This document shows, piece after piece, positions 7,060-59,805 of a DNA stretch of 64,000 bases. Position 1 is the first letter of the stretch. Every line of letters begins with the position of its first letter. The position numbers and the translations under genes were made by a program. Origin of the DNA: Meghimatium bilineatum (taxonomy: Eukaryota; Mollusca; Gastropoda; Stylommatophora; Philomycidae); contig CM067322.1 in NCBI GenBank assembly GCA_034231615.1, forward strand, positions 100,707,087 to 100,771,086, in the 5' to 3' direction. The notes under the pieces are model-generated. The model saw only the letters and a list, made by a program, of their open reading frames with translations, was not told the DNA's origin and made no database searches.

Positions 7060-7425
7060 TCCGTTACACAATTACTAAAATATACAATCCCCAATACTTA
7101 TTGACATTTATTCTCCTTCCCCTATATAATTTGATGTTTGTACTTTAATTCTCATTTATATTGTTCAACTCTTACGTTTACTAGTTTATTATTCACTCTG
7201 TAGTGTCGATACTGTTTGCATGGCTCGCCATAAAACCTGTTGATGTTTTGAATACTCTACAAATAGACACAAGTTACTAAAGATAAAAATGGCTCAAAAG
7301 TGGAATAAAACGGAATATATATACATACAATATACATGCCACTCCCTTTCCCAATAAGATTGAAGAGGTACAGTGTGTATATAAGATTATATATATAATC
7401 TAGAGACATATTTCCTCCTAGAGAG
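7060..7425. other. No gene seen
   Basis: AT-rich sequence with a few TA dinucleotide runs near 7315-7335 and 7383-7398. Nothing else is recognised. Confidence 0.4.
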
Positions 7426-7429
7426 CCAG

Positions 7430-13460: not shown

Positions 13461-13759
13461 ACACTTTAAAATGGATTTTTAAAAAACCTAATATTATCAA
13501 ATTTTAAAGAAATACTAATGTTGGGGTTTAAGCTGACCTTAGGGCAGCAAAATGACACACGATGGAGATACAACAAAAGATATCTGTATCATAATTGCGT
13601 TGGCATCAAGTGCGTTCAATGACCTAACAAATATCTGGAAATCATAAACAATAAGTAAATATACCAAACTACGATTGTTCAACTACAATGTGATATCTGT
13701 ATGAACATACCATTACGAAAATTGGAAAGTAACATAAACACCGGAAAAGGAATTACATT

Positions 13760-14645
13760 CATTTGAAAATACATGTCTTACAAGAGCACATGATACAAGA
13801 GACATTACATGACTACAACACGTCTATATCGATCGGAGGTCGCCCTATTTGCAACTTGCGTTTCGCTGATGATATTGATCTTATAGCTGGGTCAGAACAA
13901 TCATTGCAAGAATTAACATTAAAGTTAGAAAAAGTTACCAGCAAGTACGGAATGGAAATCAATTCAGATAAGAGCAAAATCTTGGTAAACAGCAGAGACA
14001 CAGAAAACCAGACTAATATCATGATGAATGGACATAAGCTTGAAGAGGTGAATACCTTCAAATACCTCGGATCCAGTATATGCAGCGATGGTAAATGCAA
14101 AGCAGAACTAAAAATAAGGCTGGAGATGGCTTTAGCGTCCTTGTCAAGGCTAACTGTGATTTGGAAAAGCAACAGTGTTGGAGTGAAAATCAAACTGTAT
14201 AGGTCGCTGGTGCTTTCCGTTGTGTTGTATGGTTGTGAGAGTTGGACACTCACTGCGGACATGGAGAGAAGATTACAGGCTTTCGAGTATAAATGGTACA
14301 GAAGAATTCTACGAATTTCCTATAGGGAACATAAGACCAATGTGTACGTAAGAAATAAAGTAGAGATGTGTGCAGGTGTCCATGAGCCATTGCTTTCAAT
14401 AGTGAAACGACGAAAACTAGCATGGTTCGGACATGTATGCAGGCACGATTCCTTGTCAAAAACAATACTGCAGGGAACTGTCGAGGGTGGAAGAAGCAGA
14501 GGAGGACAAATAAAGACATGGACAGACAACATCAAGGAATGGACAGGGCTAGATATTTCCACACTCATCCGCATCGCTGAGGATAGAATTCGCTGGATGA
14601 CTCTGTGTGCTGAAGCTTCCAATGTGGTACCCCTACGATCCTGAA
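13760..14645 (+). pseudogene. LINE reverse transcriptase, 3' half with open frame
   Basis: One open frame of about 290 residues covers RT from the catalytic box to the C-terminus. It shows ICNLRFADDIDLIAGSEQSL (FADD in place of YADD), YGMEINSDKSKIL, FKYLGSSICSDGKCKAE, LYGCESWTL, RRILRISYREHKTNVYVRNK, RKLAWFGHVCRHDSLSKTIL, and ends VVPLRS-stop. The 5' part of ORF2 (endonuclease and fingers) is absent, so the copy is truncated. Its open frame suggests it is younger than its neighbours. Decayed relatives lie at 39310-39540 (+) and 55430-55577 (-). Confidence 0.88.
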
Positions 14646-20570: not shown

Positions 20571-21338
20571 ATGACAATCCCGCCATTTGATGAAAGTTAC
20601 GGAAGTTCAGAAAAGAACGTAATCATGAATGGAACAGTAGATAACATTAGACATAAGGCTACCGATGTAGTCAATGACCCAAGCTACAAACCCCCCAATC
20701 TGCCAAATACGGCCGAATGCAAAGAAACCACACGCCTTATTCAGAACAAAAGTGCTTCTGATTCACAAGTTTCCTTCCCCACAGTCCGATTGTGGTTTTG
20801 TTGTTCACTAATTATTGCAACGCTTGGAATGGTTTTTATCACTCTTGAATCGTTTACGTCGCAATATTTAGTTCACCGTTTCTCACAGGACCTCAACAAT
20901 AATGTCACTGTAAACCCTTCAGGCAGCGAGGGAAGCTGTGATAATTCAACAGTGAATGATAGAGGTCAAGATGACGACGTTCAAAGAAAAGCAGCGACGA
21001 CGGTTCAGTACTCTACGATCGCTTTGTGTATTCCGGTAGTCTTTGCATGCCTGTTTTCTGGGTCGTTGTCAGACTGTCTTGGAAGAAAGATTCTACTTGT
21101 CTGCACGATATCAGGAACTTTGCTCAAGACCATCATTTTATGTCTTGTTATCAAGTTTGATCTGGATGTGTGGTTGATCTACCTAGGCTCAGTCGTAGAG
21201 GGACTTCCTGGATCATTCTACGTGGTCGTTCTAGCCATCATAGCTTCCATTGCTGACATTACTCCCGACGGAGAAAACAAGGCTGTCCGTTTCGCAATTA
21301 TTCAAGCAATGACACAAGTTTGTGCAGCTCTTGGTCAG
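20571..21338 (+). CDS. SLC46A-like: Gene B exon 1 (residues 1-256)
   Basis: First supported ATG at 20571 ([11 protein letters not shown]). Residues 1-71 are polar and cytosolic. Span 1 lies about 72-92 ([11 protein letters not shown]...), followed by an external loop with N-V-T at 111 and N-S-T at 125, span 2 about 147-165, motif [11 protein letters not shown], span 3 about 174-194, span 4 about 200-226, and most of span 5. It ends CTTGGTCAG before donor GTATAA in phase 0. The upstream frame could start at a non-AUG codon or in another exon. Confidence 0.9.
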
Positions 21339-22261
21339 GTATAATCAATCAGTATTCTAGTCTATCACCTATAAACATATAACACTCTAATATTTCAGCA
21401 ATAAGCCAAAAACATTATAGGCTATAAGCAATAAATAATCAACATTCTCGTCTATCAACTATAAACAATCAATATTCTATTTTGCCAAATATAAACATGA
21501 AATATTCTAGTCTCGGAAATAAAAACAATCCTGATTTTAGATTAGCAAGGACAAACAATACAAATGATTTTCTCTCAGTTATAAACAGAATCAAATCTAT
21601 GTATGATCAGAACATGCGAATCTATGTATGATCAGAACATGCGAATCTATGTATGATCAGAACATGCGAATCTATGTATGATCAGAACATGCGAATCTAT
21701 GTATGATCAGAACATGCGAATCTATGTATGATCAGAACATGCGAATTTCCAGTGGCTACATACGGTATGGACATTAAAAAAACAGTAGCAATGAGAATTA
21801 CTGCTTTCGAAATGAGATGCCACAGAAGAATTGTACGTATGCCATGGACAACTAAAAAGACAAATCAAGAAACGTTAAGATCAATAAACGTCGAAGGGGC
21901 TGGCTCCGTAACAATATCATAACAAGAAAGCTACGTTTCTTTGAGCATGTGAAGAGACGTAACAGCATGGATAGACTAATAGCTAAAGGTAGTGTTAACT
22001 TCAACATTGAAAGAGGGTGCCCAAGACGACGATGGTGTACTGATTTATCGGATTGTTTAAACATGTCTATGACTGCGGCAGGTCAACTCGCCCAGAACGC
22101 GAAATGTTTAGAGAATCCATAAGGAAGACCACATTCTGAAAAAAATGTCACATAATGATGATTCTAGTCTCTTAACTATCAATAATTAACATTCAAATGT
22201 AGCAGTAATGAAGACACCAGGTCTTGCCACGGTGATGTTTATTTACGTCTTGTCATTACAC

Positions 22262-22304
<43 letters not shown>

Positions 22305-25300
22305 TACACTAGCTTCTAAATTGTAGCGTCAGTCAACATTACAGTTTAAAAACTATTAAGCAATTGACATTAAAGTTTCCGAAATATAAGCAATTGACAT
22401 TAGAGTTTACGAAATATAAGCAATCAACATTAAAGTTTCAGAACTACAAGCAATCAAAATTAGAATTTCTTAACTGTAACTGAACATATTAACAACACGA
22501 GACAGAGAGTTATGGAGAGACATTGTCGCCAACTCCACTCGGCATGACACTTGATTCATTGAACTATAAGCAATCAACATTCTATTCTCTCAGCTTATAA
22601 ACAATAAACATTCTGTTAGATCAGCTATAAATAATATATATTTAATTACCACAACTACAAATAATCAACATTCTAGTTTTTGATGTGTGAACTGTCAACA
22701 TTACATACTTTCTAATATAAATAATCAACATTCCCCAGCTCTGTTGCTGTGTGAACTGTCAACATTACATACTTTCTAATATAAATAATCAACATTCCCC
22801 AGCTCTGTTGCTGTGTGAACTGTCAGCATTACTTTCTAATATAAATAATCAACATTCCCCAGCTCTGTTGCTGTGTGAACTGTCAACATTACATACTTTC
22901 TAATATAAATAATCAACATTCCCCAGCTCTGTTGCTGTGTGAACTGTCAACATTACATTCTAATATAAATAATCAACATTCCCCAGCTCTGGTACAGAAT
23001 AGCAACAATTTACTCTTACAGATTATATATCGCAGATGATTTTGCAGGCAGTTATCAACATGTTTCATACAATATTACATATGATTACACATTTCATATG
23101 GCTACACGTTTTATATGGCTGCATATTTCATATGGTTACATATTTCATATGGTTACATATTTCATATGGTTACACATTTCATATGGCTACACGTTTTATA
23201 TGGCTGCATATTTCATATGGTTACATATTTTAAATATCATGCTACATACAGCTTGAAATTTTCAGCAACATATTTTATCCAACACAGAGCATCTCGCTGA
23301 GATCACACAACATATAAATCATCCATCACATATCATCCAGCTGAGATCACACAACATATAAATCAGCCAACAAACAACACCTGCCATACAATACAATATT
23401 TCGGAAACTCTATATTAAAACCTGTGGTTCTTAACTGTTTTAAGCAGTGCGTACCCCCCACTCCTCCAGCCCACTAAATGTGCATCTGTCTTCCGCCGAA
23501 TCTTAAAATATCTTGAAAACATTCTTCTTCTTATTAAATATTTTTTTAAAATATCTGTCGAATAGTTAATTTCCTGTACAACCCCACCAATAAAAATTCA
23601 ACGTTCCGACAAAAAGACCTCTATCAAATGCACATCATAATACACAACGAATCATGAACGTCACTGTCTGCGACGATCAAATGATAATGTCTGATGATAT
23701 CAACAATATAGCAATTATGATGTGATAGCAAATGTTATCTTTCCGTAATCGTGTGTGATATCTTGTGCTCTTGGTAAAGATCGTTTCATTCAAACGTCGA
23801 TTTGCATGTGTGTTATCTGTTTCAGCGCCGCTTAATAAAACTTCATCACTCTTTCCAAGTTTTAGCCTAAAGGAACGGACAGAACTTGAATGCTGCACAC
23901 TGGTCAGCACACACACGACAGGAAGATAACAAGCGGTCATCCTCCTCATCACCGCCTCGATCCTAGAAGATTCCAGGGTATAATACCACTTCTATAACGA
24001 TGTGGCACTTTTATGTCGCATGTTGAAGAACCACATAGATGCAACATAACACACCACATCTTGGGGCAGATCTTGGGGCAGATCTTGGGGCAGATGTCTG
24101 CTATTTTCAAAAACAAATATGTAAACATGAACACCAAAACGGCACTATATAAAATTATCATCATACCATCACTTAGAGAGAATGTCAAACGTGGACATTA
24201 ACAAGAGAAGCCAAAAGAAAACTTGCTGCAACAGAAATTACTTGTCTGCGTAGAATTTTCGGAGTAACAATAAGAAACGGAATCACAAAAGAAAACACAA
24301 ATATTTAGAATATCAACAAACACAGTACCAAACTTGGATTACATCAGAAAACAACAGATTAAGATTTCCCATGTTTCTAGACAACCATTTGACAGTGCCC
24401 CTCAAAAAGCATGACTATACAGACACGATGGGTACAAATCTAGGGGACGACCTTACAAACGATGGATTACAGAAATAAAAGAGTCAACGAAAACAAACAT
24501 ATATGAAGAACACACAAAGTCATATCCAAAGAATTATTTCAGCCCTGAGGCTGCAAGGCACAAAGGGGGTAAAACGCGGGGAAAAAAATAAAGAGAACCA
24601 CTGTCAGAAATCATACTTCGTACAACATACTTTCATTGTTAAATAGTCTCAAGTCATACTTCGTACATCAGACTTTCATTGTTAAATAGTCTGAAGTCAT
24701 ACTTCGTACATCATACTTTCATTGTTAAATAGTCTGAAGTCATACTTCGTACATCAGACTTTCATTGTTAAATAGTCTGAAGTCATACTTCGTACATCAT
24801 ACTTTCATTGTTAAATAGTCTGAAGTCATACTTCGTACAACATACTTTCATTGTTAAATAGTCTGAAGTCATACTTCGTACAACATACTTTCATTGTTAA
24901 ATAGTCTGAAGTCATACTTCGTACATCAGACTTTCATTGTTAAATAGTCTGAAGTCATACTTCGTACATCATACTTTCATTGTTAAATAGTCTGAAGTCA
25001 TACTTCGTACAACATACTTTCATTGTTAAATAGTCTATATAATTTTTCCTAGATCGGAGCTGGATACTTGATTAAAGCTGTGGGTTTCTTCATTCCCGTA
25101 CTGATATTCGCGTGTATGCTAAGTGTCTGCCTTCTCGTTACCATATTCTTACTACCTGAGACACTGAGACAGAAGCAAACCTTTACCTGGAATATCGTAA
25201 CGCATATCAAGAAGGTCAGTATGTTTATGTTGTTGATAACTGCATGCTCTGTTACAATGAATTTTCATCATCATTTGCTGTGTCCCTTGGCGTACTCGAT

Positions 25301-28300: not shown

Positions 28301-31300
28301 TTTACGAGTGCTGTGAAAAGTTATTAGATAACTATCCACACAGAAGGTGACATCCAGCTGAACACACATGACAACTTGTGAGATCTTGTTTGATGCATGT
28401 TTTGTTTCTACGTGGTTTGCTTTGTTTGATAAATAGGTCAGTTCTAAATCTTCTGATACAAACACATTCTAAGCGGACGAAAGACGAAACAATTAATTTA
28501 AATTTTCAAAGAATGTCTTAATTGTTTTAAACTCCGCATTTTTTAAGTGCTCAATTTTATGCGAGTCCCCCTTTATTGTTATCAACTGCACGCATATAAA
28601 GTGTACTTTTAATTATTTCCAGACTTTTAGCTTCTATTTCTCTGCTGGTTCCATGAAATATAGCCGACTTATGTACAGTATAGCACTAGGGACGCACGTA
28701 ATCACGATATTGAACAGATTGGGATCAATAACAGTGGAGACACTGTTTGAAATCAGCAGTCCTCTATGCTGGAATTCAGTTGACATCGGCATATACAATT
28801 CAACTAGACTGGTGAGTAACATGTAAATGTGTATGCATACATATCAGTTAGTATTGGGGGTATCTGGTTCGAATCCGCCTGCGTCGTTTTGTTTATAGAG
28901 TGGATTTTTTGCTGAGATCCCTGGGATTATCACTTGAAGCTACGGAGTTACGTGCTGTGAGTAGGACTCTAGGCAAGTTGAGAGCGTTGTTGAGCTTCTT
29001 GCCGCTTTGCTGAGAGCTTCGGAGCAAATATATGGCATTTTAACACCAATTAATATAATTTATTAATTAGGCAACATAACAGATGACATTTCAGAATAGC
29101 CCATGGCTGCCTAGTGTGTTTGAGCAAAAAATGAAAGGTAAACCATCAACGATGCTGCTAGTTCCAGTTACGTGTTATACATGTAATCCTCTCTTTAATC
29201 GCTGCAGGAGTCTCTGCTAACTAGTCATGACTGCGTCCAATTTTCAGGACTACCAACTAAGAAATAAGAATTTATTTTGTTCTGTCTTAGTCACTTGTGC
29301 AGTGAAACGATATGGGGGGGGGGGGGGGATTGGGGAGGTGGGATCTAAAGTCTATACTCTAAGGTAGAATTTGTTACTGTTGTTGTTGGAATCCCATGGT
29401 GTTGTAGAATGTCTCTTATATTGTCGATCCACTTTGATATTCCTCTTTCCCTCACACCTGAATATTTTACTGTTATATGCTCCCGAAGGGAGGCGGTCAA
29501 GCTCCATTTTCATTTAATGTCCGAAACATTTGGTTTGTTGTCTCTGGATATAGTCGTTGACTGGTGTAGTTGCTAGAGTAGCCAGAGAGTCTATAGTCTT
29601 CACTCTGATGATTGTTAGTAGTTTCCACACTTTGAGAGGGGGGGGCTGAGTTGTTGTTCCACACTTGGAGAGGGGGGGGCTGAGTTGTTGTTTCAAGGCC
29701 AGATGTATTGCCTTGATTACGTTGTGTCCATCTTTGTTCAAGGTTATCTTGATGTTTTCTATCCATCATTGTCTCCGACTAATTTTTGATTTGTGTCCGA
29801 ATATTATTTTGTTATACACTTTTGAGAATCTGAACATTGACAGCAAGGATTTAAGAATAATCAAGAACATGTACTGGCAACAAACAGCAGCAATAAGAGT
29901 AGGAAAGCAATTTGGCCCTTTTCAACAAATAAAACAAGGAGTCAGACAGGGATGCGTGCTTTCACCAGACCTGTTCTCTCTATACAGTGAAAACATATTG
30001 CGTGCAATAGTAGATATCCCAGGAATATACAGTGGGAGGACATAACATAAATAATTTGAGATATGCGGATGACACTGTTCTGATTGCAAAAAGTGAGGAA
30101 GACCTTCAAAACTTAATTAAAGTAGTAGTCACAGAAAGCAAAGAGAAAGGCCTCTTCCTAAATATCAAGAAAACAGAAGTAATGGTTATTTCAAAGAAAG
30201 AAAATAACACACCTTGCAAGATCATAGTGAATGATATAGTATTAAAACAGGTCCACCAATTCAAATATCTAGGTACAATTATAACAACAGATGGAAGAAG
30301 TTCAACAGAAATAAGATGCAGAATAGGACAGGCAAAAAAAAACATTCAGAAAAATGAAAATATACTGTGTAATATGACCTTGTCATTAGAGGTGAGAAAG
30401 AGAGTTCTGCAGTGCTATATAACCCCTATACTAACATATGGGTGCGAGTCTTGGACAATAAACAAACTGGAAAGTGGGAGATTGGAGGCAACAGAGATGT
30501 GGTTCTACAGAAGAATGCTGAGAATACCATGGACTGCCAGAAAAACTAATGTAGAGGTGTTAAAAGAGTTAAATGCGAAACGGACCTTAATCAACAATAT
30601 AAGAAAAAGGCAATCTTCTTTTTTTTGGCCACTTCATGAGACAGGCAGGTTTAGAGAACATAATCACAACAGGCAAGATTGAAGGCACCAGAGACAGAGG
30701 GCGACAACGTGAGAAAATATTAGACAGTTTGACAACCTGGCACGGCAAAGAAACAACAACGACTTTGATACATAATACTGTGGACAGAGAGCTGTGGAGA
30801 ACCATGACCGCCTACGCCACCCGGCATGGCACCTGATGATGATGATGATGATACACTTTTATTGGTGTTTTGGATTTGGTTAATTCCCATAAGCTGGCCA
30901 AACCATTTTAAGGCGTGTTCAAATGAAAACGGGACTTGTTACACCACGCGTGATAGAGCGCACTGATATTGATGACATTTTGCACTAGTAATGAGTATCC
31001 AATAATTTACATACGGTCACGTGTTCATCTTCCCAGCATGCATATGTGCTGCAGAAGACTGTTAACAATATGGCGGGTGTGATTCCGAACCCGTCCAAAG
31101 TGAATCAGCGTGCTGTGATCCAGTTTCTTTCATTTGAAGGATGTCAAGCAGTAGACATTCATCGGAGAATGAAGGCAGCATATGGTGACAAATGTTTGTC
31201 GAGGACCAGAGTGATGGAGTGGGTGCGTATGTTTAAAGACGGAGGTTTCTGCTGGGAAGGTTATGGTGACTGCATTTTTTGACCATGAAGGGCTTTTGTT

Positions 31301-34300
31301 GACTGATTTTAAGGAACCTGGTGTCAACATCAATGCCGCCCATTATAAAGACACTTTAGACAAGCTGCATAAGGCCATCAAGGCTAAGCGACCAGGCAGA
31401 CTTTCTCAAGGTGTGATTCTTCTCCACGACAACGCTCGTCCGCACGTCGCAAAAATTGTGCAGGAAACATTGGCAAAGAAGAATTGGGAAGTTCTTCATC
31501 ACCCAGCCTATAGTCCCGATTTATCCCCGTGTGATTTCCATTTGTTCGGACCGTTGAAGAAAGCACTAAAGGGACAGCGATTCAACAGCGACGCAGACGT
31601 GAAGACAGCGGTGACCACATGGTTCAGAGAACAGCCACGCAACTTTTTCTCGGACGGCATTCGACGTCTACCTAAACAGTGGGATGCTTGCCTAAATGCA
31701 TACGGAGATTTTTTCTGATGAACCCAGGTGCATTCTTATTCACAAGTGGTTGCTTTGTTCAATTCCGTTGAAAATATTAAATTGCGTATGATACTTTTTA
31801 AATAAATCCACAAGTCCCGTTTTCATTTGAACACGCCTCGTACTTGTTGTTTTCCCACTATTATTCAATATGTTCTTCTTATTGGCGTTCATTCTCAAAC
31901 TACCACTGGATCTCTCTTGTAGCAGGACACATTCTCAAACTCCCACTGGATCTCTCTCTTGTAGCAGGACACATTCTCAAACTCCCACTGGATCTCTCTC
32001 TTGTAGCAGGACACATTCTCAAACTCCCACTGGATCTCTCTCTTGTAGCAGGACACATTCTCAAACTCCCACTGGATCTCTCTCTTGTAGCAAGACACAT
32101 TCTCAAACTCCAACTGGATCTCTCTTGTAGCAGGACACATTCTCAAACTCCCACTGGATCTCTCTCTTGTAGCAGGACACATTCTCAAACTCCCACTGGA
32201 TCTCTCTTGTAGCAGGACACATTCTCAAACTCCCACTGGATCTCTCTTGTAGCAGGACACATTCTCAAACTCCCACTGGATCTCTCTTGTAGCAGGATAC
32301 ATTCTCAAACTCCCACTGGATCTCTCTTGTAGCAGGATACATTCTCAAACTTCCACTGGATCTCTCTTGTAGCAGGATACATTCTCAAACTCCCACTGGA
32401 TCTCTCTTGTAGCAGGACACATTCTCAAACTCCCACTGGATCTCTCTTGTAGCAGGATACATTCTCAAACTCCCACTGGATCTCTCTTGTAGCAGGATAC
32501 ATTCTCAAACTCCCACTGGATCTCTCTTATAGCAGGACACATTCTCAAACTCCCACTGGATCTCTCTCTTGTAGCAGGACACATTCTCAAACTCCCACTG
32601 GATCTCTCTTGTAGCAGGACACATTCTCAAACTCCCACTGGATCTCTCTTGCAGCAGGACACATTCTCAAACTCCCATTGGATATCTTTTGCAGCAGGAC
32701 ACATTCTCAAACTCCCACTCGATCTCTCTTGCAGCAGGACACATTCTCAAACTCCCACTGGATCTCTCTTGCAGCAGGACACATTCTCAAACTCCCACTG
32801 GATCTCTCTTGCAGCAGGACACATTCTCAAACTCTCACTGGATCTCTCTTGTAGCAGGACACATTCTCAAACTCCCACTGGATCTCTCTTGCAGCAGGAC
32901 ACATTCTCAAACTCCCATTGGATATCTTTTGCAGCAGGACACATTCTCAAACTCCCACTCGATCTCTCTTGCAGCAGGACAGTGGACATACAACAGTTCC
33001 GGAATGTTGCAGTCCAGAGAATTGAAATGCGGTGTATCACCATATTATTTGTGCCAATGGCAAGGCACATCCGTCTTCGGCGGGCTATATGTTCATTACA
33101 TGATATAATACCAACTCTTTTCCTAATTTATTTATTTTGTCTAATTTAGCAGCCATTGCAGAGGCATTCAACAAGAGAGTATTTGACAGACCAGTCGAGT
33201 GTTGCAGTATCATTGATTGATCTTCATTCATGATTAAATCTATAGACAATCATTATTGAATCCACAGAAGATTATTATTGAATCCACCAAAAATCATTAT
33301 TGAATCCACAGAAGATTATTAATGAATCCACAAAAAAATCATTATTGAATCCACAGAAGATTATTATTAAATCCACGGAAGATTATTATTGAATCCACAA
33401 AAAATCATTATTGAATCCACAGAATATTATTATTGAATCCACAAAAAATCATTATTGAATCCACAGAAGATTATTATTGAATCCACAAAAATCATTATTG
33501 AATCCACAGAAGATTATTATTGAATCCACAAAAAATCATTATTGAATCCACAGAAGATCATTATTGAATCCACAAAAAATCACTATTGAATCCACAGAAT
33601 ATTATTATTGAATCCACAAAAAATAATTATTGAATCCACAGAAGATTATTATTGAATCCACAAAAAATCATTATTGAATCCACAGAAGATTATTATTGAA
33701 TCCACAAAAATCATTATTGAATCCACAGAAGATCATTATTGAATCCACAGAAGATTATTATTGAATCCACAGAAGATTATTATTGAATCCACAGAAGATT
33801 ATTAATGAATCCACAAAAAATAATTATTGAATCCACAGAAGATTATTAATGAATCCACAAAAAATCATTATTGAATCCACAGAAGATTATTATTGAATCC
33901 ACAGAAGATTATTATTGAATCCACAAAAATCATTATTGAATCCACAGAAGATTATTATTGAATCCACAAAAATCATTATTGAATCCACAGAAGATCATTA
34001 TTGAATCCACAGAAGATTATTAATGAATCCACAAAAAATCGTTATTGAATCCACAGAAGATTATTAATGAATCCACAAAAATCATTATTGAATCCACAGA
34101 AGATTATTATTGAATCCACAAAAAATCATTATTGAATCCACAGAAGATTCGTGGTTGGCCCGTTCGTTTCCCTCCACACCCGCGTGTCCGGGGACAAAAA
34201 TAAGCGTGAGTCTTCGTAGTGATGCCCGCCTTTCTGCTCTCTCAAATGTCTCCGCCCATTCCCTACGAATGTCACCTGTTTTGACTTTCTGAATGAAATT

Positions 34301-37300
34301 CAGAGAGTCACTTAGTATGCATGCATGGGAATAGGCTTGCGATTCCAGCCAGTTAAGAGCCTGCGTTACTGCGAATACTTCCATAGTTAGGCTACTTGTT
34401 GTTACGGTAAGGGCGCCACTGGCATCATGTACTGTTTTTTCTTTTGATCTTGCAGTAAAGGCCCATACGCATCGGTGTTCCGATAAGGTTCCATGATCGA
34501 ATAGTGGGGGTTTGTTTTTCTTATGTTCTTCTGGTCATTGTCTAGTTAAGATGACTTCATACAAACCACAAACACTAGGTAAGATGACTTCAAAACAACA
34601 ACAAAAAATAGGTAAGGATGACTTAAAAACAACAACAAAAACTAAGTAAGGATGACTTCAAAACAACAACAAAAACTAGGCAAGACGACTTCAAAACAAC
34701 AACAAATACTAGGTAAAGATGTCTTCTGAACAACAAGAAAAAGTAAAATCTTGAAATCTTTTTACAGCTACGTTATGGAAGTAATATGTTATATGTTTTA
34801 TGTTGTATGTTATATGTTGTATGTTATATGTTGTATGTTTTAACTTATGATGATGATGAAATAATTGCTCTTTCTGTGAGCAGGTATCTTAAGACAGCCA
34901 ATAGTCTTGCTGACAAAACGCAGGTTCTTTACAGTTTTGTAACTGAGGTAACGCCCGGATTCATATAAGGTTAAGTCTCAGCAACATGGTTGTGTAAGGG
35001 AGGTTAATGGATACATGTTTGGTCCCCATGGGAAGCACTCCAGGATTAGATGTCCTACCAGGAGCACAGTACACACTTCTAGGTCAACTATCTCATCATT
35101 CTTCTGCCAGATGTGTTGACCAATCCGCAGTGACGTCACATGTAGCATTCCTCGTCAACTTATGAATCTGCTACAAAAGGACAAAGGTGAAATATCGACT
35201 GACCAGCATCTCCTCACCATCCATGGGGGTCTTTCCTTAATCGCCTCATACGAAATATCTGGGGAAAAGCCAGTGACCCTATTCTTTGTATCATAAGAAT
35301 CCAGGGCCAAGTTTTCACAGGGGCCAATTTCTAATATAAAGAATACCGTAAATTTTAACAAGATCAATGTCAGCATATTAATTTGTATTCTGTGAAGTAA
35401 ACAATGGGAAGCTGAAGCTTTCTCTTTGTTGTGACAAGTGAGTTTCAGCTATCATTAGCCATTATTGTCGAAGAAATTAAACATGTCCTGATGTGCTTAT
35501 ATTACTGTATGTTACTACAGGTCCGGATGTGCTTATATTACTGTATGTTACTACAGGTCCTGATGTGCTTATATTACTGTATGTTACTACAGGTCCTGAT
35601 GTGCTTATATTACTGTATGTTACTACAGGTCCTGATGTGCTTATATTACTGTATGTTACTACAGGTCCTGATGTGCTTATATTACTGTATGTTACTACAG
35701 GTCCTGATGTGCTTATATTACTGTATGTTACTATAGGTCGAGATGTGCTTATATTACTGTATGTTACTATAGGTCCTGATGTGCTTATATTACTGTATGT
35801 TACTACAGGTCGTGATGGCAGTGTCTGCTGTAGTTCTGTTGAAAGTCTGTAAGAACCGGCTATCCCTGGAAATGACCGCTGCTATCTGTTCAGTGAGTGG
35901 TGTGGCGGGATATGTTATCGAAGGATTTGCATACTCCACTGCCATGATGTATATATGTAAGTTTTTTTCCAATGACGTAAGTATTCTTCTGGCGATGTAA
36001 GATTCTTCTGCTGTTGTAAGTATTATTTTATTGATGTAAGTATTATTTTATTGATGTAAGTATTATTTTATTGATGTAAGTATTATTTTATTGTTGTAAG
36101 TATTATTTTATTGTTGTAAGTGTTTGTCTATTCATTTAAGTGCTCTTCTGTTGTTATCTTATATTGTTCTAATATATTCTTCTATTGTTGTAATGTCTTT
36201 CTCTATTGTTCTAATATATTCTTCTATTGTTGTAATTTATTCTTATATTATTGTATGTATTGCATGCTGCATGTACTATTCTATTGTATTGTTAATTAGT
36301 TAGTCGTTGGATCATCGTCATTGCACTCCGGACAAGTCCATATGTGTTCAGATCTCTCCTTGAGTGTAGCCGCCATTACACGTGGACTGACGGTCCCAGT
36401 ACGCAGTTGATTGACCATCATTCTTTCTTTTCCACGAAACCGCTCCATTCTATCGACACCACATTTCAAACCACATTCCTTTATTTTAGTCATGGAACAA
36501 GAGTCATCGTCTCTTATACAGTCATTTTTTCCTGCGTTTTCCCGTAGAGCGTTTAAAATGTCTGCTCGATCCAGTTATCCACCAACAGCCGTAGTAGCAG
36601 CGTGTGCGGCCAACCTATCTGCTCTCTCATTACCCCAGACTCCCGCATGTCCCGGCACAAAAAAGATAGTCACTTTACGCATACATGAATTCTTCACTGC
36701 ATCCAGCCACTGTTCCCGAATGTATCCCGCCTGAACTTTCACAATCATGCTCATCGAGTCACTGAGTATGCAAGCATGCTCGCTGATAGTCTGAGAGCAG
36801 ACCCATTGCAAAGTTTTGGTTACTGCCAAAATCTCCATTGTCATGCTGCTTGTCGTCTGAGGGAAAGCACCACTTTCCTTTGTGATGGTTTCTCCCCACC
36901 TTTGAGCCATGAAGACCCGGGCACTTCTGATGTGTCTCTCAACTGACCCATCTGTATATACAATCATATCACCTTCCCTGGAATTTTCAACTTTAGAGCG
37001 AGTACCTCCGACTCCATTCTATTGTATTTATTCTTCTATTGTTGTATGTATTCTTCTATTGATGCTCGTGTAGTTGCTCTTTCTGGCACTTTTAGGGATT
37101 CTATCCGGATTTGTGGTGGCTATTGATGAAGCGCGTATTTATTGCAATGGGACAATCGTCATATCCGACATTTCTCTAATTCTGTTAGCATACACGCACA
37201 GTTTATGAAGTAAGCATACACGCACAGTTTATGAAGTAAGCATACACGCACAGTTTATGAAGTAAGCATACACGCACAGTTTATGAAGTAAGCATACACG

Positions 37301-40300
37301 CACAGTTTATGAAAGCAGAGACACGCTAGGAACGTCACCAGGGTCGCATGAAAGATCGTCGGTCATAAGAGGCGCTATCTGGAGAACTGACTAGCTCTCT
37401 CTAAGATGGAGGACAGAAGAAGCGTTTTAAAGACACTTTTAAGACATTACTGACTCACTTCATTACACAGTTACACATTGCACAAGACAGAGTCGACTAG
37501 CGCTGCAGAAACAAGAGTGGTGCAGCAGCTGCAAAGAAACTCAGACATTACGCTGCGCAGCAAAAACGCAATAGTATTAAGTAAAAAGCTGCGCAATGTT
37601 GCTCAACTCCCCCAACACATTCTCAGAATGCGGTTGAGAATTCCAGGCGGAATAGGACTCATTATTCACAGTCGGACACACCATATAAATCATCATATTC
37701 CTTATCATTCAAGTTGAGCTAATCGTTGTCGATTCCGACGGACGAGCAACACTCATCAGTTTTTATTATTGAAACAACTCTAGGCACACTCACATTGAAC
37801 CGATGTCTTTGAAGCAGATAACAAAACATGCGCTCGCTGTGTGTTCCCATAACTCGCTGGTTATAATTCTATCGTTCAAGTTTTTTGTGGAATATAGTAC
37901 TGCAACTACCGCTCTCCGTCGATCTTGGTTAGTATGAACAAAAATCTGTGAATGTTCAACCCTGGTACAAAACAATTAATAGTTCAACCCTGGTACAAAA
38001 CAATTAATAGTTCAACCCTGGTACAAAACAATTAATAGTTCAACCCTGGTACAAAACAATTAATAGTTCAACCCTGGTACAAAACAATTAATAGTTCAAC
38101 CCTGGTACAAAACAATTAATAGTTCAACCCTGGTACAAAACAATTAATAGTTCAACCCTGGTACAAAACAATTAATAGTTCAACCCTGGTACAAAACAAT
38201 TAATAGTTCAACCCTGGTACAAAACAATTAATAGTTCAACCCTGGTACAAAACAATTAATAGTTCAACCCTGGTACAAAACAATTAATAGTTCAACCCTG
38301 GTACAAAACAATTAATAGTTCAACCCTGGTACAAAACAATTAATAGTTCAACCCTGGTACAAAACAATTAATAGTTCAACCCTGGTACAAAACAATTAAT
38401 AGTTCAACCCTGGTATAAAACAATTAATAGTTCAACCCTGGTACAAAGCAATAAATGGAAAACACCTTCCGATTTATGCAAGGAAGAAAATTGAAGATAC
38501 ATATATTACGAGCCAACAATTTATGGAAGAAACAACACTGCAGATATAGACATTATTAATCAACAAATTACACAAGAAACAACACTGCAGATATAGACAT
38601 TATTAATCAATATTTTAGCCGTTACATTTACAGTAAATTAAAAAAAGGTTTAATGGAGAGATATACTTTAGGAATCGCGGTCCAAAAGAAAATGTTTAAA
38701 AAAGGTGTCTGCAACAGCGAAAGGTTTCAGAACCAGTGGATTACATAATTCACATACGCGTCTTGTACTAACACTTGGTCATCTCAAGAGTTTCTCTTGC
38801 TCTCACGAACACAGGCACCGCACACAAACACAGTACACAAGCACCGTACACACTCCAATATGAATATTTATTTACTGTATTCATATGTTTATGGAAATGT
38901 ATATATTAGTTTATGGAAATGTCTATATTAGTTTATGGAAATGTATATATTAGTTTATGGAAATGTCTATATTAGTTTATGGAAATGTATATATTAGTTT
39001 ATGGAAATGTATATATTAGTAAAATTTCTGTCTTCACATGTTAAGCGTATCTGGTTGGGATTTTCATAATCGGTTTGCAGACATTACCTCGTGCAATACT
39101 GTCACACATGGCATCACCAAGTGAGCAAGGTAAGAATATTCACAACAGATTTGGAAACTTCGATCACTATATTTTATAAGATCGAAAGCTTGGATATTGA
39201 TATTAAAGACATCAGAAAACTATAGAGAATGCGATACAACTAAATGTAATCCGCTTATCAGCAAAAATAAATAGAGTTACAGGTTATCAAGAAAAAAAAT
39301 TTGACCGTGGGTAAATCCCGTAAACGTGTGTAGTTTGGACATGTAACGAGACACAACTCACTTTCTAATATTATCTTGCAAGAAACAGTCGAGGAGGTCG
39401 AGGAAAATAGGAGGACAGAGAAAATTCTATATTGATATGATTTTGCTACACTCCTCCGAATGTCTGAGGATAGGGATGTTGGAAGAGCTTTTAGTGCTGA
39501 TGTTTCCAGTGTGACACCCCTACCCCTGGTTATCGGTTTTATACTCTTTAAAGATATTACACTAGAAACAAAGAAAGCGCTTTTCAACACCATTTTCTTA
39601 CCAACATTGTGTTATCAGTGTCAAACTTGGACATTAGATTCTAGAACAATACATAAGATTAACACCACTGAAATGAAATGTGTGAGACGTATGATTGGAG
39701 TTAGCTTGAGAGACAAAATCAGAAATGAAACACTAAGGAAACAATTAGGGATCAAGCCAACAATAGAATACATTCAGAAACAATAAGTTAAATGGTACGG
39801 CCACATAACCATACAGAAAGAGCAAAGTATTATCCAAAAAACACTTAACAAACGATACGAAAACAGGAGACCTATTGGACGCCCTCGTAAAAGGTGGATA
39901 GATAGTGTATTAGAGACACTCGGAAATATAACAGCAGAGTAGGCAAATAGAAGGGCAAAAGACCGTACACTCACTCTCCCCTCAACACCGAAAGGTACAT
40001 GAGGACAGAAAGAAGAAGAAGAAAAAGATAGGAGACATTGCTCTGACCTATCTACAGAAACACTCGGCAACATTACCTATTGCACGTCACTTCGAGAGGC
40101 TACTCACGTGTCAGAAATCAATGAAAAAAAACGAAGTAACTAACGTAGTGACGTGAGATAGTGTAGTCTTGTGATGTGTTGTTGTCGATAGGTCTAGAAC
40201 AGTCTCCGATGAGCGAATGTTTACAAGTTAGTTGTTTCCCCTTGTGTATAGTCATCATCATCATAAAGTACCGTCTCCGCAACGAAGGTTAGCTGCAACA

Positions 40301-40997: not shown

Positions 40998-43900
40998 GTG
41001 CCTGTATGTACACAGTCTATACCAGCAGTGGCTGAAGCATATTACATTCTAATTACACATGACAAGAAAAATATTTTGGTAAATAAATCCGTAACCCATC
41101 AGAGCAGTATGAGTAATATATTGGGTGCCTCAACACAAAGATTCACCCATCGATTTCTAACTTCGACAATGCAGAGGAAAAAATCGTGTCTTGTCCATTC
41201 CTTGATGTTTTATTCCTGCCTTTATTTGTCCTTTTCTGCTTCTTGGAACTTTGATGATTTCCTGCCGTATTGTTTGTGACAATATGAAACTTGCTGTGTA
41301 GGCATGTTTGTGACAATATGAAACATGCTGTGTAGGCATGTTTGTGACAATATGAAACACGCTGTGTAGGCATGTTTGTGACAATATGAAACATGCTGTG
41401 TAGGCATGTTTGTGACAATATGAAACTTGCTGTGTAGGCATGTATGTGACAATATGAAACTTGCTGTGTAGGCATGTTTATGACAATATGACGCTGTGTA
41501 GACATGTTTATGACAATATGACGCTGTGTAGACATGTTTGTGACAATGAAACACTTGTTGTGTAGACATGTTTATGACAATGAAACACTTGCTGTGTAGA
41601 CATGTTTGTGACAATATGAAACACTTGCTGTGTATGCATGTTTGTGACAATGAAACACTTGCTGTGTAGGCATGTTTTTGACAATGAAACACTTGCTGTG
41701 TAGACATGTTTTTGACAATGAAACACTTGCTGTGTAGACATGTTTGTGACAATATGAAACACTTGCTGTGTAGACATGTTTTTGACAATGAAACACTTGC
41801 TGTGTAGACATGTTTTTGACAATGAAACACTTGCTGTGTAGGCATGTTTTTGACAATGAAACACTTGCTGTGTAGGCATGTTTGTGACAATGAAACACTT
41901 GCTGTATAGGCATGTTTGTGACAATGAAACACTTGTTGTGTAGACATGTTTTTGACAATGAAACACTTGCTGTGTAGACATGTTTTTGACAATGAAACAC
42001 TTGCTGTGTAGACATGTTTGTGACAATGAAACACTTGCTGTATAGGCATGTTTGTGACAATGAAACACTTGCTGTATAGGCATGTTTGTGACAATGAAAC
42101 ACTTGCTGTATAGGCATGTTTGTGACAATGAAACACTTGTTGTGTAGGTATGTTTATGACAATGAAACACTTGCTGTGTAGACATGTTTGTGACAATCAA
42201 ACACTTGCTGTGTAGACATGTTTGTGACAATATGAAACACTTGCTGTGTAGACATGTTTGTGACAATATGAAACACTTGCTGTGTAGGTATGTTTGTGAC
42301 AATATGACGCTGTGTAGATAGACATGTTCAACTTCGAACAAGAAGAAGAATAAAAGACAATATGGTAAATATATTAATGGTAATTCTCATTATTGCGCCC
42401 CCATCATCATCATGCCCTCATACCATTATGTCATCATACGATCATTATTCTAGCTTTTGATAGAAACCACCTGTACCGTTATATATTAATGTTTATAGGT
42501 GCTGTCCTCTCAAGCTTGGCGTGTGTTGAAGCCGCTGCAACATTGCTGTCGTCTACAATTTACACGATGATTTACAATTCAACTCTGGACACATTTAGGG
42601 GAACTGCCTTCTTAATCATTGCAGGAGCTTGTTTTATCAACGCTGTTCTCTTTGGGTAAGTCAACTGAAGTTTTAAAGAATGTTGTAAACACCGGGTACA
42701 AAAAGATAGCGCTGAAGATATCGTGAAAGAAGTTTACTAACAACAAATTGAGCTGCTCATTCGAGTCTGTCCACAATCTTGGCACAAATCTTGAGCAGTG
42801 GACATTAAAAAATAGTTTAAGGAGATGTGAAAGTAGATGTACCCATCTTCAGACTAAATAATTTGTACCTCCAAATGTTAAGGGAGACTTGGAAATTAAG
42901 ATACCGCATACCCAGATTCCGCATACCCAAATACCACATACCCAGATACCGCATACCCAGATAACGCATACCGAGATTCCGCATACCCAAATACCACATA
43001 CCCAGATACCGCATACCCAGATAACGCATACCCAGATACAGAATATCCAGATACAGCATACCCAGATAACGCATACCCAGATACAGCATACCCAGATAAC
43101 GCATACCAAGATGCAGCATATCCAGATAACGCATACCCAGATAACGCATACCCAGATAACGCATACCCAGATAACGCATACTCAGATACCGCATACTCAG
43201 ATACCGCATACCCAGATACCGCATAACCATATACCGCATACCCAGATAACGCATATCCAGATACCGCATACTCAGATACCGCATACTCAGATACCGCATA
43301 CCCAGATACCGCATACCCAGATAACGCATATCCAGATACCGCATACTCAGATAACGCATATCCAGATATCGCATACTCAGATACCGCATACCAATATACC
43401 GAATACTCAGATAACGCATACCCAGATACCGCATACCAATATACCGCATACTCAGATACCGCATACTCAGATACCGCATACTCAGATACCGCATACCCAG
43501 ATATAGCATTCTCAGATACCGCATACTCAGATAACGCATACCAATATACCGCATACTCAGATACCGCATACTCAGATACCGCATACTCAGATACCGCATA
43601 TTCAGATACCGCATACCCAGATACCGCATACTCAGATACCGCATACTCAGATACCGCATACTCAGATACCGCATACTCAGATACCGCATACTAAGATACC
43701 GCATACCCAGATAACGCATACCCAGATAACGCACACCCAGATAACGCATACCCAGATAACGCATACCCAGATACCGCATACTCAGATACCGCATACTCAG
43801 ATACCGCATACTCAGATACCGCATACTCAGATACCGCATATTCAGATACCGCATATTCAGATAACGCATACCCAGATACCGCATACCAATATACCGCATA

Positions 43901-46900
43901 CTCAGATACCGCATACTCAAATACCGCATACTCAGATACCGCATACTCAGATAACGCATACCCAGATACCGCATACCTATATACCGCATACTCAGATACC
44001 GCATACTCAGATACCGCATACTCAGATACCGCATACTCAGATACCGCATACCCAGATACCGCATACTCAGATACCGCATACTTAGATACCGCATACTCAG
44101 ATACCGCATACTCAGATACCGCATACTCAGATACCGCATACTCATATACCGTATACTCAGATACCGCATACTCAGATACCGCATACTCATATACCGCATA
44201 TCCAGATACCGCATACTCAGATACCGCATACTCAGATACCGCATACTCAGATACCGCATACTCAGATACCGCATACTCAGATACCGCATACTCAGATACC
44301 GCATATCCAGATACCGCATACTCAGATACCGCATACTCAGATACCGCATACTCAGATACCGCATACTCATATACCGCATACTCATATACCTCATACCCAA
44401 ATACCGCATACCCAGATACCGCATATTCAGATACCGCATATTCAGATACCGCATACTCATATACCTCATACCCAAACACCGCATACTCAGATACCGCATA
44501 CTCAGATACCGCATATTCAGATACCGCATATTCAGATACCGCATATTCAGATACCGCATACTCATATACCTCATACCCAAATACCGCATACTCAGATACC
44601 GCATACTCAGATACCGCATATTCAGATACCGCATATTCAGATACCGCATATTCAGATACCGCATATTCAGATACCGCATATTCAGATACCGCATATTCAG
44701 ATACCGCATATTCAGATACCGCATATTCAAATACCGCATACTCAGATACCGCATATTCAGATACCGCATATTCAGATACCGCATATTCAGATACCGCATA
44801 TTCAGATACCGCATATTCAGATACCGCATATTCAGATACCCATAGTATTTTCCTCGACGCATGTCAACTCTAAAGAGAGGAGAAGGAGACATTATGGCCT
44901 ATTCACTCTTACCAAAGCACAAGCTCTCCTCAGTTTATATTTTGAGGCGACACCCTGATTCATATAAGGTTTCTTGACAGGCATGATTCTGTAAGCGATG
45001 TTTATGGATTAATATTTTATCACCGAAGGGAGACATACCATTGTGCCAGTATCCTAGGATTGCCACATCCTGCCAGGAGCATAACACACACTTCTAGACC
45101 ATCATTCTTCTGTCAGATTTGATGACCCATCCACAGTGATGGCACATCTACCGTTCTCTGTCAGATTTGATGACCCATCCACAGTGATGGCACATCTACC
45201 GTTCCCTGTAAGATTTGATGACCCATCCACAGTGATGGAACATCTACCGTTCCCTGTAAGATTTGATGACCCATCCACAGTGATGGAACATCTACCGTTT
45301 CCAGTGACATAGGAGTCTGCTACAAAAGACAAAGGTCAACTTTCCGCTGACCTCTATCTCTTCGACATCCATGATGGGATTGTGAGATGGAACACAACAA
45401 TAAGAAATTGTGACAAGGTGTGACAAGTATGTGTGTTTTTCACAAATGACAGGTTATCTGCCTATCTCCCAACTTTCTTAATCGTCACTTCTGACATGCA
45501 TGAAGATTGTACTTACTGTATCTAGTGCCTCTGTCGTGGTAACATTGTTTTTATTGTTTTCATTGTTTTTCACTGTATGTTTTATATATTTTAGAGACAG
45601 ACCTAAAGGTTTTTATAAAACGTTGAAAATATCTTTTTATTGTAATTTGTATGTTTTCTTGTTTACACCTCATAACCCCTTAGTCTTAGTGATAGTCTGT
45701 CTGTTGTGTTCAAGGGAAACATAAACAAAATGTGCCCTATGTAAGTACTATTGTTGTAGAAAGACTACAGGTGTTGTAGAAGATCTACAGGTGTTGTAGA
45801 AGATCTACAGGTGTTGTAGAAAGACTACAGGTGTTGTAGAAGATCTACAGGTGTTGTAGAAGATCTACAGGTGTTGTAGAAGATCTACAGGTGTTGTAGA
45901 AGATCTACAGGTGTTGTAGAAAGACTACAGGTGTAGAAGATCTACAGGTGTTGTAGAAGATCTACAGGTGTTGTAGAAGATCTACAGGTGTTGTAGAAGA
46001 TCTACAGGTGTTGTAGAAGATCTACAGGTGGTGTAGAAGATCTACAGGTGTTGTAGAAGATCTACAGGTGTTATAGATCTACAGGTGTTGTAGAAGATCT
46101 ACAGGTGTTGTAGAAGATCTACAGGTGTTGTAGAAGATCTACAGGTGTTGTAGAAGATCTACATGTGTTGTAGAAGATCTACAGGTGTTGTAGAAGATCT
46201 ACAGGTGTTATAGATCTACATGTGTTGTAGAAGATCTACAGGTGTTATAGATCTACAGGTGTTGTAGAAGATCTACATGTGTTGTAGAAGATCTACAGGT
46301 GTTGTAGAAGATCTACATGTATTGTAGAAGAGATCTAATGTTGTTGCAGAACATCTACTTTATAAACCACATCTCAGTTGCCTTAAGTTTATCTTTGAAA
46401 CTTTTGTTTACTATTTTGTTTAGCTTAGCTTAGGTTAATGTAGTTTAGTCTGCTTGTTTTTAGCTTAGATTAGTTTAGCTTAGTTTGAATAAGTTAGTTT
46501 AGTTTATATTTCTGAATTAACGTCGATGACCTCTAAGTAAAAACATAGGTGCTCGATCTTTGACAGCGTATGATAAAGAGTGTTAATGCTGATGGTTCCT
46601 GTAGCTCGCTGGTTGCGCACAAACCTTAGATGCATCTTCAGTCACTCCGTTCTGCTCGCCCCTGGGGTAATTTCAAATTATTTAAGTCGCATTATAGTAT
46701 CACTCTAGTGTCCTCATTTAGTAAAAGGTAATACTGCTGTAAATGGTAATATTACATTTGAATGGGTAGGTACACAGAAGGTAACGCTGGTCTGCATCTT
46801 GAGTGACTCTATGAGTATGATTAGGAAGGTACAAGTGGGTCTCGTTCGCTAACAGTGAATTGAGGCCCTGAGAAAGGCGAGGCTGAAAGTGTTTACATTT

Positions 46901-49900
46901 ATTTTCGTGCTGAGACATGTCGATATTCGAGGCAACAAAAGTGCAGATCAACTGGCGTCATGCGCGATTGTAGCACAGTGCGATGGGGCAATGGATCGAG
47001 CTGACGTTTAGTCGAGCTGACGTTTTGTCTAGCTGACGTTTTGTCGAGCTGACGTTTTATCGAGCTGACGTTTTGTCGAGCTGACGTTTTGAACTCTTTA
47101 AGAGATATAGCACGCAATAGTGAGACAAATGTGGATGATGATTCCTTTTCAATGGCTAGGATTAAAGACCAGGGTTTGAAATACGGTGTTGCTATAAGTG
47201 AATATTTTGGAGGGCGCAGAAGAATAACTGACAAACAGCATAGGACCGGTACTGTCAGCAGAAGTGTAATGGGGGATACACTCAAGGAGAGATCGGAGCA
47301 ACTATGGACGTGTCCAGTTTTCAGTGATGATGATCCGACGACCGACTAACTAACTAACTAAACAACAAACTGAACAACAAACTAAACAACTAACTAAACA
47401 ACGAACTAAACAACTAACTAGACAACTAACTAGACAACTAACTAGACAACTAACTAGACAACTAACTAGACAACTAACTAGACAACTAACTGGACAACTA
47501 ACTAGACAACTAACTAGACAACTAACTAGACTACTAACTAAACAACGAACTAAACAACGAACTAAACAACTAACTAGACAACTAACTAGACAACTAACTA
47601 GACAACTAACTAGACAACTAACTAGACAACTAACAAGACAACTAACTAAATAACTAACTAGACAACTAACTAGATAACTAACTAGACAACTAACTAGACA
47701 ACTAACTAGACAACTAACTAGACAACTAACTAGACAACTAACTAGACAACTAACTAGACAACTAACTAGACAAATAACTAGACAACTAACTAGACAAATA
47801 ACTAGACAACTAACTAAACAACTAACTAAACAACTAACTAGACAACTAACTAGACAACTAACTAGACAACTAACTAGACAACTAACTAGACAACTAACTA
47901 GACAACTAACTAGACAACTAACTAGACAACTAACTAGACAACTAACTCGACAACTAACTAGACAACTAACTAGACAAATAACTAGACAACTAACTAGACA
48001 AATAACTAGACAAATAACTAAACAATTAACTAAACAACCAACTAAACAACTAACTAAACAACTAACTAAACAACTAACTAAACAACTAACCCAACCCAAC
48101 CCAACCCACCCAAACCCACCAACCAACCAACCAACCAACCAACCAACTAACTAACTAACCAAACTACTGTAAAATTGTATGGAAATAATACTTACGTAGT
48201 AAACATGAAGTAATGATGTCTTACTGAACGACAACAAATACACTATTATTGTCGGAGGTACACATAAAATATTACACACAACAATAAACAGGATATAATT
48301 ATAAAAATACCTATACACAAGGCATAATCGACGTTTCTACCAAAAGGTCTTTATCAAGATAGCACATAACTTCAAAAGACGACGAGTAGAAATGACCGAA
48401 CACCAAAACGTGTCCAAGCAAAATGTGGATGCAAATTGCCGGAAGGATAACAACATTAAGTACATACAAAAGTAACATCTTTTATGGAAACGAAACGAAC
48501 AAAAAAGATAACGTAAATGACGGAACAAAATGAATAAAGACAAAAACTACACCAACCGAGAACTAGACAAAAGAATAGTCTGAATTGAGTCCAACGGGCT
48601 TAAAGGTACCCAACTCAAAAATAAGACGATTTTCTAGAGCGTACCTATCATCGGTGGCTGCAGGATCTGATGCAGGATCTGATGCAGTAATTTCAATACC
48701 AAGAACACAACGGTTGCCATCTCCATTGAAATGTGTGGCAACAGGAGTACGTGTTCTGTACTTGATGGCATGAAGATGGTTACAGAAACGGTCGCTCAAT
48801 CTTAAGCCAGTTTCACCGATATACTGCTTACCTCGGCGTTTACATATGATCACGTAAATGACATTACGGGATTCACATGTAAAGGCCTCATCAAGGATTA
48901 AAGTGGCCGTGGCCTTGAGCGCATCTGAACCACATAAGGAAACGTGTAGCAGCGTCCGCGCTCGCAACAAACTTCAACGGCGAGGGCCACCGTGATGTTC
49001 AGGTCATAGCCATCAGATCGTGCACCACCGATGATAGATCTAGTTACACTCTTGAAAATTGTTTTGTTTTTTTTAAAAGTTGGATACCCATAGAAACTTG
49101 GACTGAATTCCGACCTTTCTTTTATCTAGTTCTCGGTTGGTATGGTCTTTGTCTTTATTAATTGTGTTCCGTCATTTATGTCATTTTTTGTTCGTTTCGT
49201 TTCCAGCTATATTTACGTATTTATGTACCTAATGTTCCTATCCTTTCGGCATATCGCATCCACATTTAGCTCGGACACGTTTTTGTGTCGTGGTAATTTC
49301 TACTCGTCGCCTTGTGATGTTATATTCTTATCTTGATAAAGGCCTTTTGGTAGAAACGTCGATTATGAATTGTGTATTGTTATTTGTATGAATATATCCT
49401 GTGTATTATTGTAATGTCCTTCTTGTCCATAACTAATTCTCCTAGTATTGGTGCCTGAGATACTAATGTGTCGACTCCTTCTTTGCAGCGGACTCCTGCA
49501 TGGTCAGAACTATAAATTCGCAGAATTCTCAACAGATCTGTGCTCCATTCATTCATAACAATAACCTCCAACATGAGAGTGGAGATACATGTCAACAATC
49601 TCTAACATGAGAATGGGATGTACATGACAACAACCTCCAAAATGAGAGCGGAGTTACATGGCAACAACCTCCAACAAGAGAGTGGAATGTACATGGCAAG
49701 AACCTCCAACATGAGAGTAGAATATACATGACTACAACCTCAAATATGAGAGTGAAATGTAAATAGCAAGATACTCCAACATGAGAGTATGCTGAAGGCT
49801 GTTGCTATGTACATTCCACTCCCATGTTGGAGGTTGTAGTCATGTACATTCCACTCCCATGTTGGAGGTTGTTGTCATGTACATTCCCCTCTCATGGTGG

Positions 49901-59500: not shown

Positions 59501-59805
59501 GAGTGTTGTTGAACGCTGAGTGTTGTTGAACGCTGAGTGTTGTTGAACGCTGAGTGTTGTTGAGTGTTGTTGAACGCTGAGTGTTGTTGAGTGTTGTTGA
59601 ACGCTGAGTGTTGTTGAGTGTTGTTGAACGCTGAGTGTTGTTGAACGCTGAGTGTTGTTGAACGCTGAGTGTTGTTGAACGCTGAGTGTTGTTGAGTGTT
59701 GTTGAGTGATGGGTGTTATTGAGCACTGAGTGTTGTTGAGCACTGAGTGTTGTTGAGCACTGAGTGTTGTTGAGCGCTGGGTGTTGTTGAACGCTGAGTG
59801 TTGGA
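56540..59805. repeat. Satellite-like block, 3.3 kb, 10-bp base and 34-bp higher-order unit
   Basis: Base unit GAGTGTTGTT. The dominant higher-order unit is 34 bp, GAGCACTGAGTGTTGTTGAG then TGCTGGGTGTTATT. Ends (56540-56800 and 59280-59805) are diverged or carry other variants (GAACGCTGAGTGTT), the centre is homogeneous, and blocks of several hundred bases recur (for example 58010-58200 and 58665-58860). Minus-strand Thr/Asn/Gln/Ser ORFs are repeat artefacts. Confidence 0.95.

Follow-up and report, generated by a model that had tools for sequence, protein, structure and literature searches.

How does the end of an intron turn into a tandem repeat, and what do the additional copies mean for splicing of the exon that follows? 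The question is raised by a gene, here called gene B, in a 64-kb window (64,000 nucleotides, the whole stretch of DNA analysed). Intron 3 of this gene closes with a run of near-identical short units that leads directly into exon 4, and a second array begins where exon 4 ends.

The host gene

Gene B is, by homology, an SLC46/PCFT-like transporter gene. Its exons are as follows.

20571..21338, plus strand: exon 1, coding part, of the SLC46-like gene model
25053..25214, plus strand: exon 2 (gene model, tblastn and phase)
28623..28811, plus strand: exon 3 (gene model, tblastn and phase)
35809..35956, plus strand: exon 4, 148 bp, phase 0 in and phase 1 out; its first 9 bases form a partial tenth array copy (8/9)
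39046..39129, plus strand: exon 5 (gene model, tblastn and phase)
42499..42655, plus strand: exon 6 (gene model, tblastn)

Exons 1-6 join in frame and, with three bases more, encode 503 residues. The protein matches the proton-coupled folate transporter 7bc6 (E 3.4e-37, query residues 96-502) as well as the Pfam family MFS_1 (5.2e-17). Exon 6 is followed by GTAAGT, a possible donor, and the frame continued without splicing ends at TAA. The start of exon 4 is supported because the alignment to 7bc6 runs through the exon 3/exon 4 junction of the spliced protein and because a phase-0 AG junction occupies this place in five genes of the surrounding cluster, counting gene B. At the exon 5 acceptor (window 39036-39047), gene B reads AAG and its paralogs p1 and p2 read CAG; the gene that has the acceptor array is the one with the lower-scoring AAG. 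Domain fragments occur in the window at 7385-8038, 13733-14644, 30014-30682, 31215-31718, 36575-37018, and 48563-48973, with domains of reverse transcriptase (three), mariner-type transposase, RNase H, and GIY-YIG; those at 30014-30682 and 31215-31718 lie within intron 3 of gene B. No Rfam match was found within the 64-kb window.

The acceptor-side array

The features of the 3′ end of intron 3 are the following.

35400..35484, plus strand: intron flank upstream of the array, matched by homologous sequence ahead of the lone unit of p1 and of p2
35485..35808, plus strand: acceptor array, nine 36-bp units each ending in AG (unit-by-unit comparison, TRF)
35701..35772, plus strand: units 7 and 8, with TAG ends, which score lower as acceptors and place a stop in frame for acceptors on their 5′ side
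35773..35808, plus strand: unit 9, holding the real 3′ splice site; the corresponding place in p1 and in p2 has just one such unit

TRF reports 35481-35817 as an array of period 36 with 9.4 copies and a 96% match. Alignment of the nine full units reveals five differences from the 36-bp consensus in 324 bases: T5G in unit 2, C34T in unit 7, and C4G, T5A, and C34T in unit 8. All nine units end in AG, as CAG in units 1-6 and 9 and as TAG in units 7 and 8. A preliminary description of this DNA had reported nine tandem 36-bp units leading into exon 4, with TAG ends at 35736 and 35772, and both points are borne out by the TRF array and by the individual units. The same description counted nine acceptors before the exon; nine unit-end AGs are indeed present, but eight of them are extra and the ninth is the real acceptor. 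Unit 8 contains a second AG, at 35741-35742, besides the one at its end. Seven units begin exactly with GTCCTGATG, the exceptions being unit 2 (GTCCGGATG) and unit 8 (GTCGAGATG). A 27-nt unit pattern allowing up to three mismatches yields nine matches in the window, all of them in the array, and none in 100 shuffles.

Branch-point-like yUnAy motifs at -22 and -30 give each unit the look of a complete 3′ splice site in its own right. The repeat extends across the exon-intron boundary, with the array 35481-35817 overlapping the exon 4 acceptor (A4) by 9 bp. Over these nine bases of exon 4, GTCGTGATG resembles the unit start GTCCTGATG at 8/9 positions, and beyond them no similarity is seen; the stretch corresponding to the unit start is intronic in p1 and p2. 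Junction self-similarity at A4, considered separately, proved uninformative, as 27% of random gene positions reach the A4 score. An assembly artefact, in which units were over- or under-collapsed, is very unlikely. Tandem arrays are error-prone in assembly, but the present assembly comprises 32 contigs for 1.61 Gb, and the ordered variants between units are not what a simple duplication error would make.

A single unit in two paralogs

A search of the array plus exon 4 against its own genome (1.61 Gb, 32 contigs) returned 17 matches. The best after the window itself, at C25:100655718 (88%) and C25:100699298 (86%), both begin only at the last unit. They correspond to two paralogs, 44 and 87 kb upstream, in which the intron end, flank, and exon are as in gene B. 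Scanning of the 3.2-kb loci (L002 for p1, L003 for p2) located exactly one unit each at 26/36 matches or better. This single unit is identical to the gene B unit at 30/36 positions in p1 and 31/36 in p2, and exon 4 is identical at 131/148 and 124/148, respectively. With only one unit left in the window sequence in silico, the alignment with both paralogs extends from the flank through the unit and exon to the donor. Acceptor units in p1, p2, and gene B, paralogs within one assembly, number 1, 1, and 9, and among these three the nine-unit array is private to gene B. The fourteen further genome matches, at 66-78% identity to the array-plus-exon query, are probably other arrays of similar composition; five of them, excised as loci L004-L008, contain no unit at 26/36 or better.

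With just one unit between matching flank and exon in p1 and p2, the array would most simply be an expansion, private to gene B, of a 3′ splice site once present in single copy. One unit would likewise be the simplest ancestral state, and unit loss in p1 and p2 instead of gain in gene B is possible though less simple. This one-unit state in two paralogs of gene B is newly found here. Homology also points to 35808/35809 as the inherited acceptor junction and, presumably, the one in use. That assignment is supported by GT or AG at 45/45 junctions placed in the cluster (see below), and the earlier gene model was not used for it.

The paralogs also offer a candidate for the origin of the expansion. 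In p1, the unit start TTCGTGATT, within the intron, and the exon start GTCGTGATG are alike at 7/9 positions and lie 36 bp apart; in p2, the corresponding direct repeat at -36 and +1 is only 5/9 alike. The resemblance of the unit start to the exon probably predates the array. Slippage or unequal exchange could plausibly have been seeded by such a short direct repeat spanning the junction. The age of the repeat is uncertain given 7/9 in p1 versus 5/9 in p2. The near-identity of unit start and exon start noted in the preliminary description holds at 8/9, but it is at least equally well explained by an older direct repeat of 36-bp spacing, seen in single-unit p1. Copying of exon bases into the intron does not necessarily follow from an exon-like unit start. 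Unit 8, with its GTCG start and TATAG end, resembles p1 in features absent from the consensus unit.

The explanation that we favor, and consider probable, is tandem expansion of a single-copy acceptor, giving a mirage of the lancelet type: a minisatellite by-product, tolerated in a gene cluster dense with repeats, that harbors latent cryptic splice sites. The short direct repeats at -36 and +1 would have allowed slippage or unequal exchange and thereby the duplication of 36 bp comprising the branch-point-like motifs, a weak pyrimidine tract, and AG. Growth and homogenization of the array would have followed this first duplication and, with the exon-proximal acceptor still mainly used, the extra copies would have become intron. 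Use of an upstream copy would yield either a 12-residue insertion near span 8 (from 35772) or a premature stop.

Consequences of acceptor choice

The outcome of using each acceptor was computed on joined exons. Acceptor 35808 gives the canonical frame, and 35772 adds 12 codons without a stop. Acceptors 35736, 35700, 35664, 35628, 35592, 35556, and 35520 all run into the TAG of unit 7 or 8. The isoform table is in agreement with earlier proposals that 35772 would add 12 residues before span 8 and that any acceptor above it would bring in a stop (7/7). Acceptor scores, which are rough and derived from approximate splice-site frequencies, come to 8.13 for the real site and the six upstream CAG sites and to 6.96 for the two TAG sites. 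By the same measure, the other four acceptors of gene B score 4.95 to 9.67, and 12 of the 406 AGs that precede the array in intron 3 reach at least 8.13. The scores support the view that the array units would be about equally good acceptors, the six CAG units matching the real site and the two TAG units falling lower. TAG is probably workable as an acceptor here, because the inherited junction of p1 reads TATAG, the same ending as units 7 and 8. RNA structure that hides the decoy acceptors was rejected, as folding of the array plus exon 4 is no more stable than that of shuffles (z +1.40).

The equal scores of the six decoy acceptors and the real one, together with the early stops that follow from seven of the eight upstream acceptors, would also suit a regulatory device, in line with the suggestion in the preliminary description that a change of copy number could tune splicing or create null isoforms. 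In such a scheme, nine acceptors, and nine donors opposite, compete for exon 4, copy number tunes dosage via stop-containing, decay-prone isoforms, and the TAG units serve as a stop firebreak. We regard this as unlikely: the acceptor array is absent from p1 and p2, and the TATAG of units 7 and 8, being the real acceptor of p1 too, need not be a selected stop. The array period is divisible by 3 in 9/27 arrays, as by chance, and published mirages are described as splicing normally (PMC3087553). Dependence of productive exon 4 splicing on copy number, amid eight decoy acceptors and eight decoy donors, is similarly improbable. Most of the decoys do equal or exceed the real sites in score; if the idea is true, copy number, which could differ between alleles or even cells, could act as a fast dosage dial.

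The donor-side array

The opposite end of exon 4 carries an array of its own, on which the preliminary description of the acceptor array is silent.

35957..36141, plus strand: donor-side 20-bp array; unit 1 is the real 5′ splice site GTAAGT, with eight more GTAAG downstream

This array, bounded at 35955-36121 by TRF and at 35955-36141 in merged calls, overlaps the exon 4 donor (D4) by 2 bp and comprises nine units with GTAAG, the real donor included. In a rough computation with the U1 end, seven of the eight decoy donors pair better with U1 (-7.3 to -7.6) than does the real site (-5.4), and one pairs worse (-4.3); all eight downstream decoys give an early stop. Both results count toward the regulatory device, and undisturbed splicing is made less obvious by the seven decoys that pair better than the real donor. 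The array is common to p1, p2, and gene B and starts at the same junction in all three, with 48.3, 13.9, and 8.4 TRF copies, respectively. Because p1 and p2 also carry it from this junction, it probably arose before the acceptor array.

A further point for regulation is the retention of the GTAAG core in four degenerate units of gene B, where it is changed at 1/20 positions versus 24/60 elsewhere (p 0.004, with units laid out by their GTAAG). This conservation does not clearly recur in the paralogs. Values for the GTAAGT columns versus the rest are 0.97 versus 0.79 in gene B, 0.79 versus 0.86 in p1, and 0.87 versus 0.79 in p2. Selective upkeep of the decoy donors is suggested in gene B, and no selection is claimed, because the bias is absent in p1 and weak in p2.

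Relation to known systems

The original report of mirages, in lancelet Adh, is said to have appeared in NAR in 2002. As described in PMC3087553, lancelet mirages are minisatellite-like tandem duplications of exon-intron boundaries, many with AG/GT signals, in Adh3 and the globins BflGb6 and BflGb9. PGBD5 and troponin C were added by PMC3902484, and both papers report that regular splicing is not disturbed. The arrays described here are the same in duplicating boundaries on the 3′ and 5′ sides and in having units with AG/GT signals. Unit lengths of 10-72 bp given for lancelet Adh3 bracket the 36, 20, 19, and 54 bp found here. Copy number varies in lancelet mirages, as it does here among paralogs of one assembly (1, 1, and 9 acceptor units). 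Unlike the lancelet cases, both sides of one exon are arrayed, one-unit paralogs and a candidate seed are at hand, and splicing is predicted from the sequence.

A human minisatellite with multiple donor sites (Turri type), reportedly in the gene IFI6/6-16, likewise has units that carry splice sites. It differs in lying on the donor side and, by its title, in providing several sites to the transcript, whereas the 36-bp array of gene B is on the acceptor side and its extra sites are putative. Besides this human case, searches of open-access papers turned up none outside lancelets, an absence that carries little weight. The occurrence of tandem arrays across exon-intron boundaries in what is apparently not a lancelet genome, with the one-unit state in neighboring paralogs, makes it testable how such arrays start, namely from short direct repeats across a splice site, and how the spliceosome chooses the exon-proximal site among near-identical copies.

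In the model of Rogers, as cited in PMC3087553, introns are gained by tandem duplication of AGGT segments. Tandem duplication multiplies splice signals in both settings, but the model gains an intron, whereas in gene B an existing intron end is multiplied and no intron is gained as far as seen. AG/GT does stand at each unit junction, and intron gain from mirages has been proposed for lancelet globins (PMC3087553). A role of the units in recursive splicing, or as intermediates in this type of intron gain, is nonetheless extremely unlikely: the GT half, GTCCTG, is far from the donor consensus, and no new intron position is seen at the junctions located in five genes. Segments of 36 nt are also very short for introns.

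Junction arrays in the gene cluster

Searches with the exons (tblastn) place five gene copies in 240 kb around the window (2,500 N within), with p1, p2, gene B, and p4 on the plus strand and p5 on the minus strand; the search did not place exons 1 and 5 of p4 or exon 5 of p5. A genome-wide search with the exon 4 protein gives six hits at E ≤0.001. All fall in this stretch of C25, and p6 is the sixth. The region C25:100600001-100890000 (L009-L026 and L033-L037, window included) contains at least six SLC46-like genes, one of them on the opposite strand; junctions correspond among the five genes studied in detail. Junctions in the five genes, placed from match ends and phase, show GT or AG in all 45 cases, a count that omits p6, D1, A5, and D5 of p4, and A5 and D5 of p5.

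Seven of these 45 junctions are in an array or no more than 2 nt away from one: D4 of p1, p2, gene B, and p4; A4 and D1 of gene B; and D3 of p5. At p4 D4, a 19-bp unit, ATGTACATGT/GTAAGTATT, copies the exon end, and the five copies listed read GTAAGT in three, real one included, and ATAAGT in two. The 54-bp array at p5 D3 has six GGTGAGT, again with the real donor among them. Array formation at junctions thus recurs in the cluster, as seen from D4 of p1, p2, gene B, and p4 and from D3 of p5. The exon 1 donor of gene B, which abuts a degenerate 30-bp array at 21340-21513, was rejected as a junction array with a copied donor: within the stretch inspected, the donor is not repeated in the following units.

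Recurrence may reflect coincidence, in that arrays of a minisatellite-rich gene will sometimes touch splice sites without any link to the junction. This account, somewhat doubtful but far from negligible, is compatible with the tandem expansion proposed above. Arrays cover 34% of the gene B span and 37% of its introns. In the five genes, with gene-span coverage of 22-36%, 10/45 junctions lie within 25 nt of an array, which is no excess because array coverage alone predicts at least as many. In an array-poorer set, with flank coverage of 8%, only 1/40 myosin match edges is this close to an array (best 20 of 67 myosin-head matches; edges are those of the profile match, not exact exon ends). Junction arrays seem, on these figures, to track local array density. 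Coincidence fares less well if the founding unit must span the junction, where 1.18 are expected versus four seemingly independent cases in five genes (P 0.03; the array of p1, p2, and gene B taken once, D1 left out, and p4 counted as independent by its different unit). For gene B alone, two or more junction arrays have P 0.036, or 0.007 under random placement. The splice signal is copied in each unit whatever the cause. An attraction of arrays to splice sites is not claimed, as the null models disagree.

Arrays also occur at other positions in the cluster and the window. In p6, a 53-bp array covers the end of exon 1 and a 24-bp array begins 3 nt from the end of exon 3 (L033:3076-3489 and L034:8443-8593). 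Arrays of period ≥10 cover 32% of the window, in which very long minisatellites lie at 42899-44844 (15-bp unit, 130 copies) and 56554-59803 (17/34-bp units, 3.2 kb).
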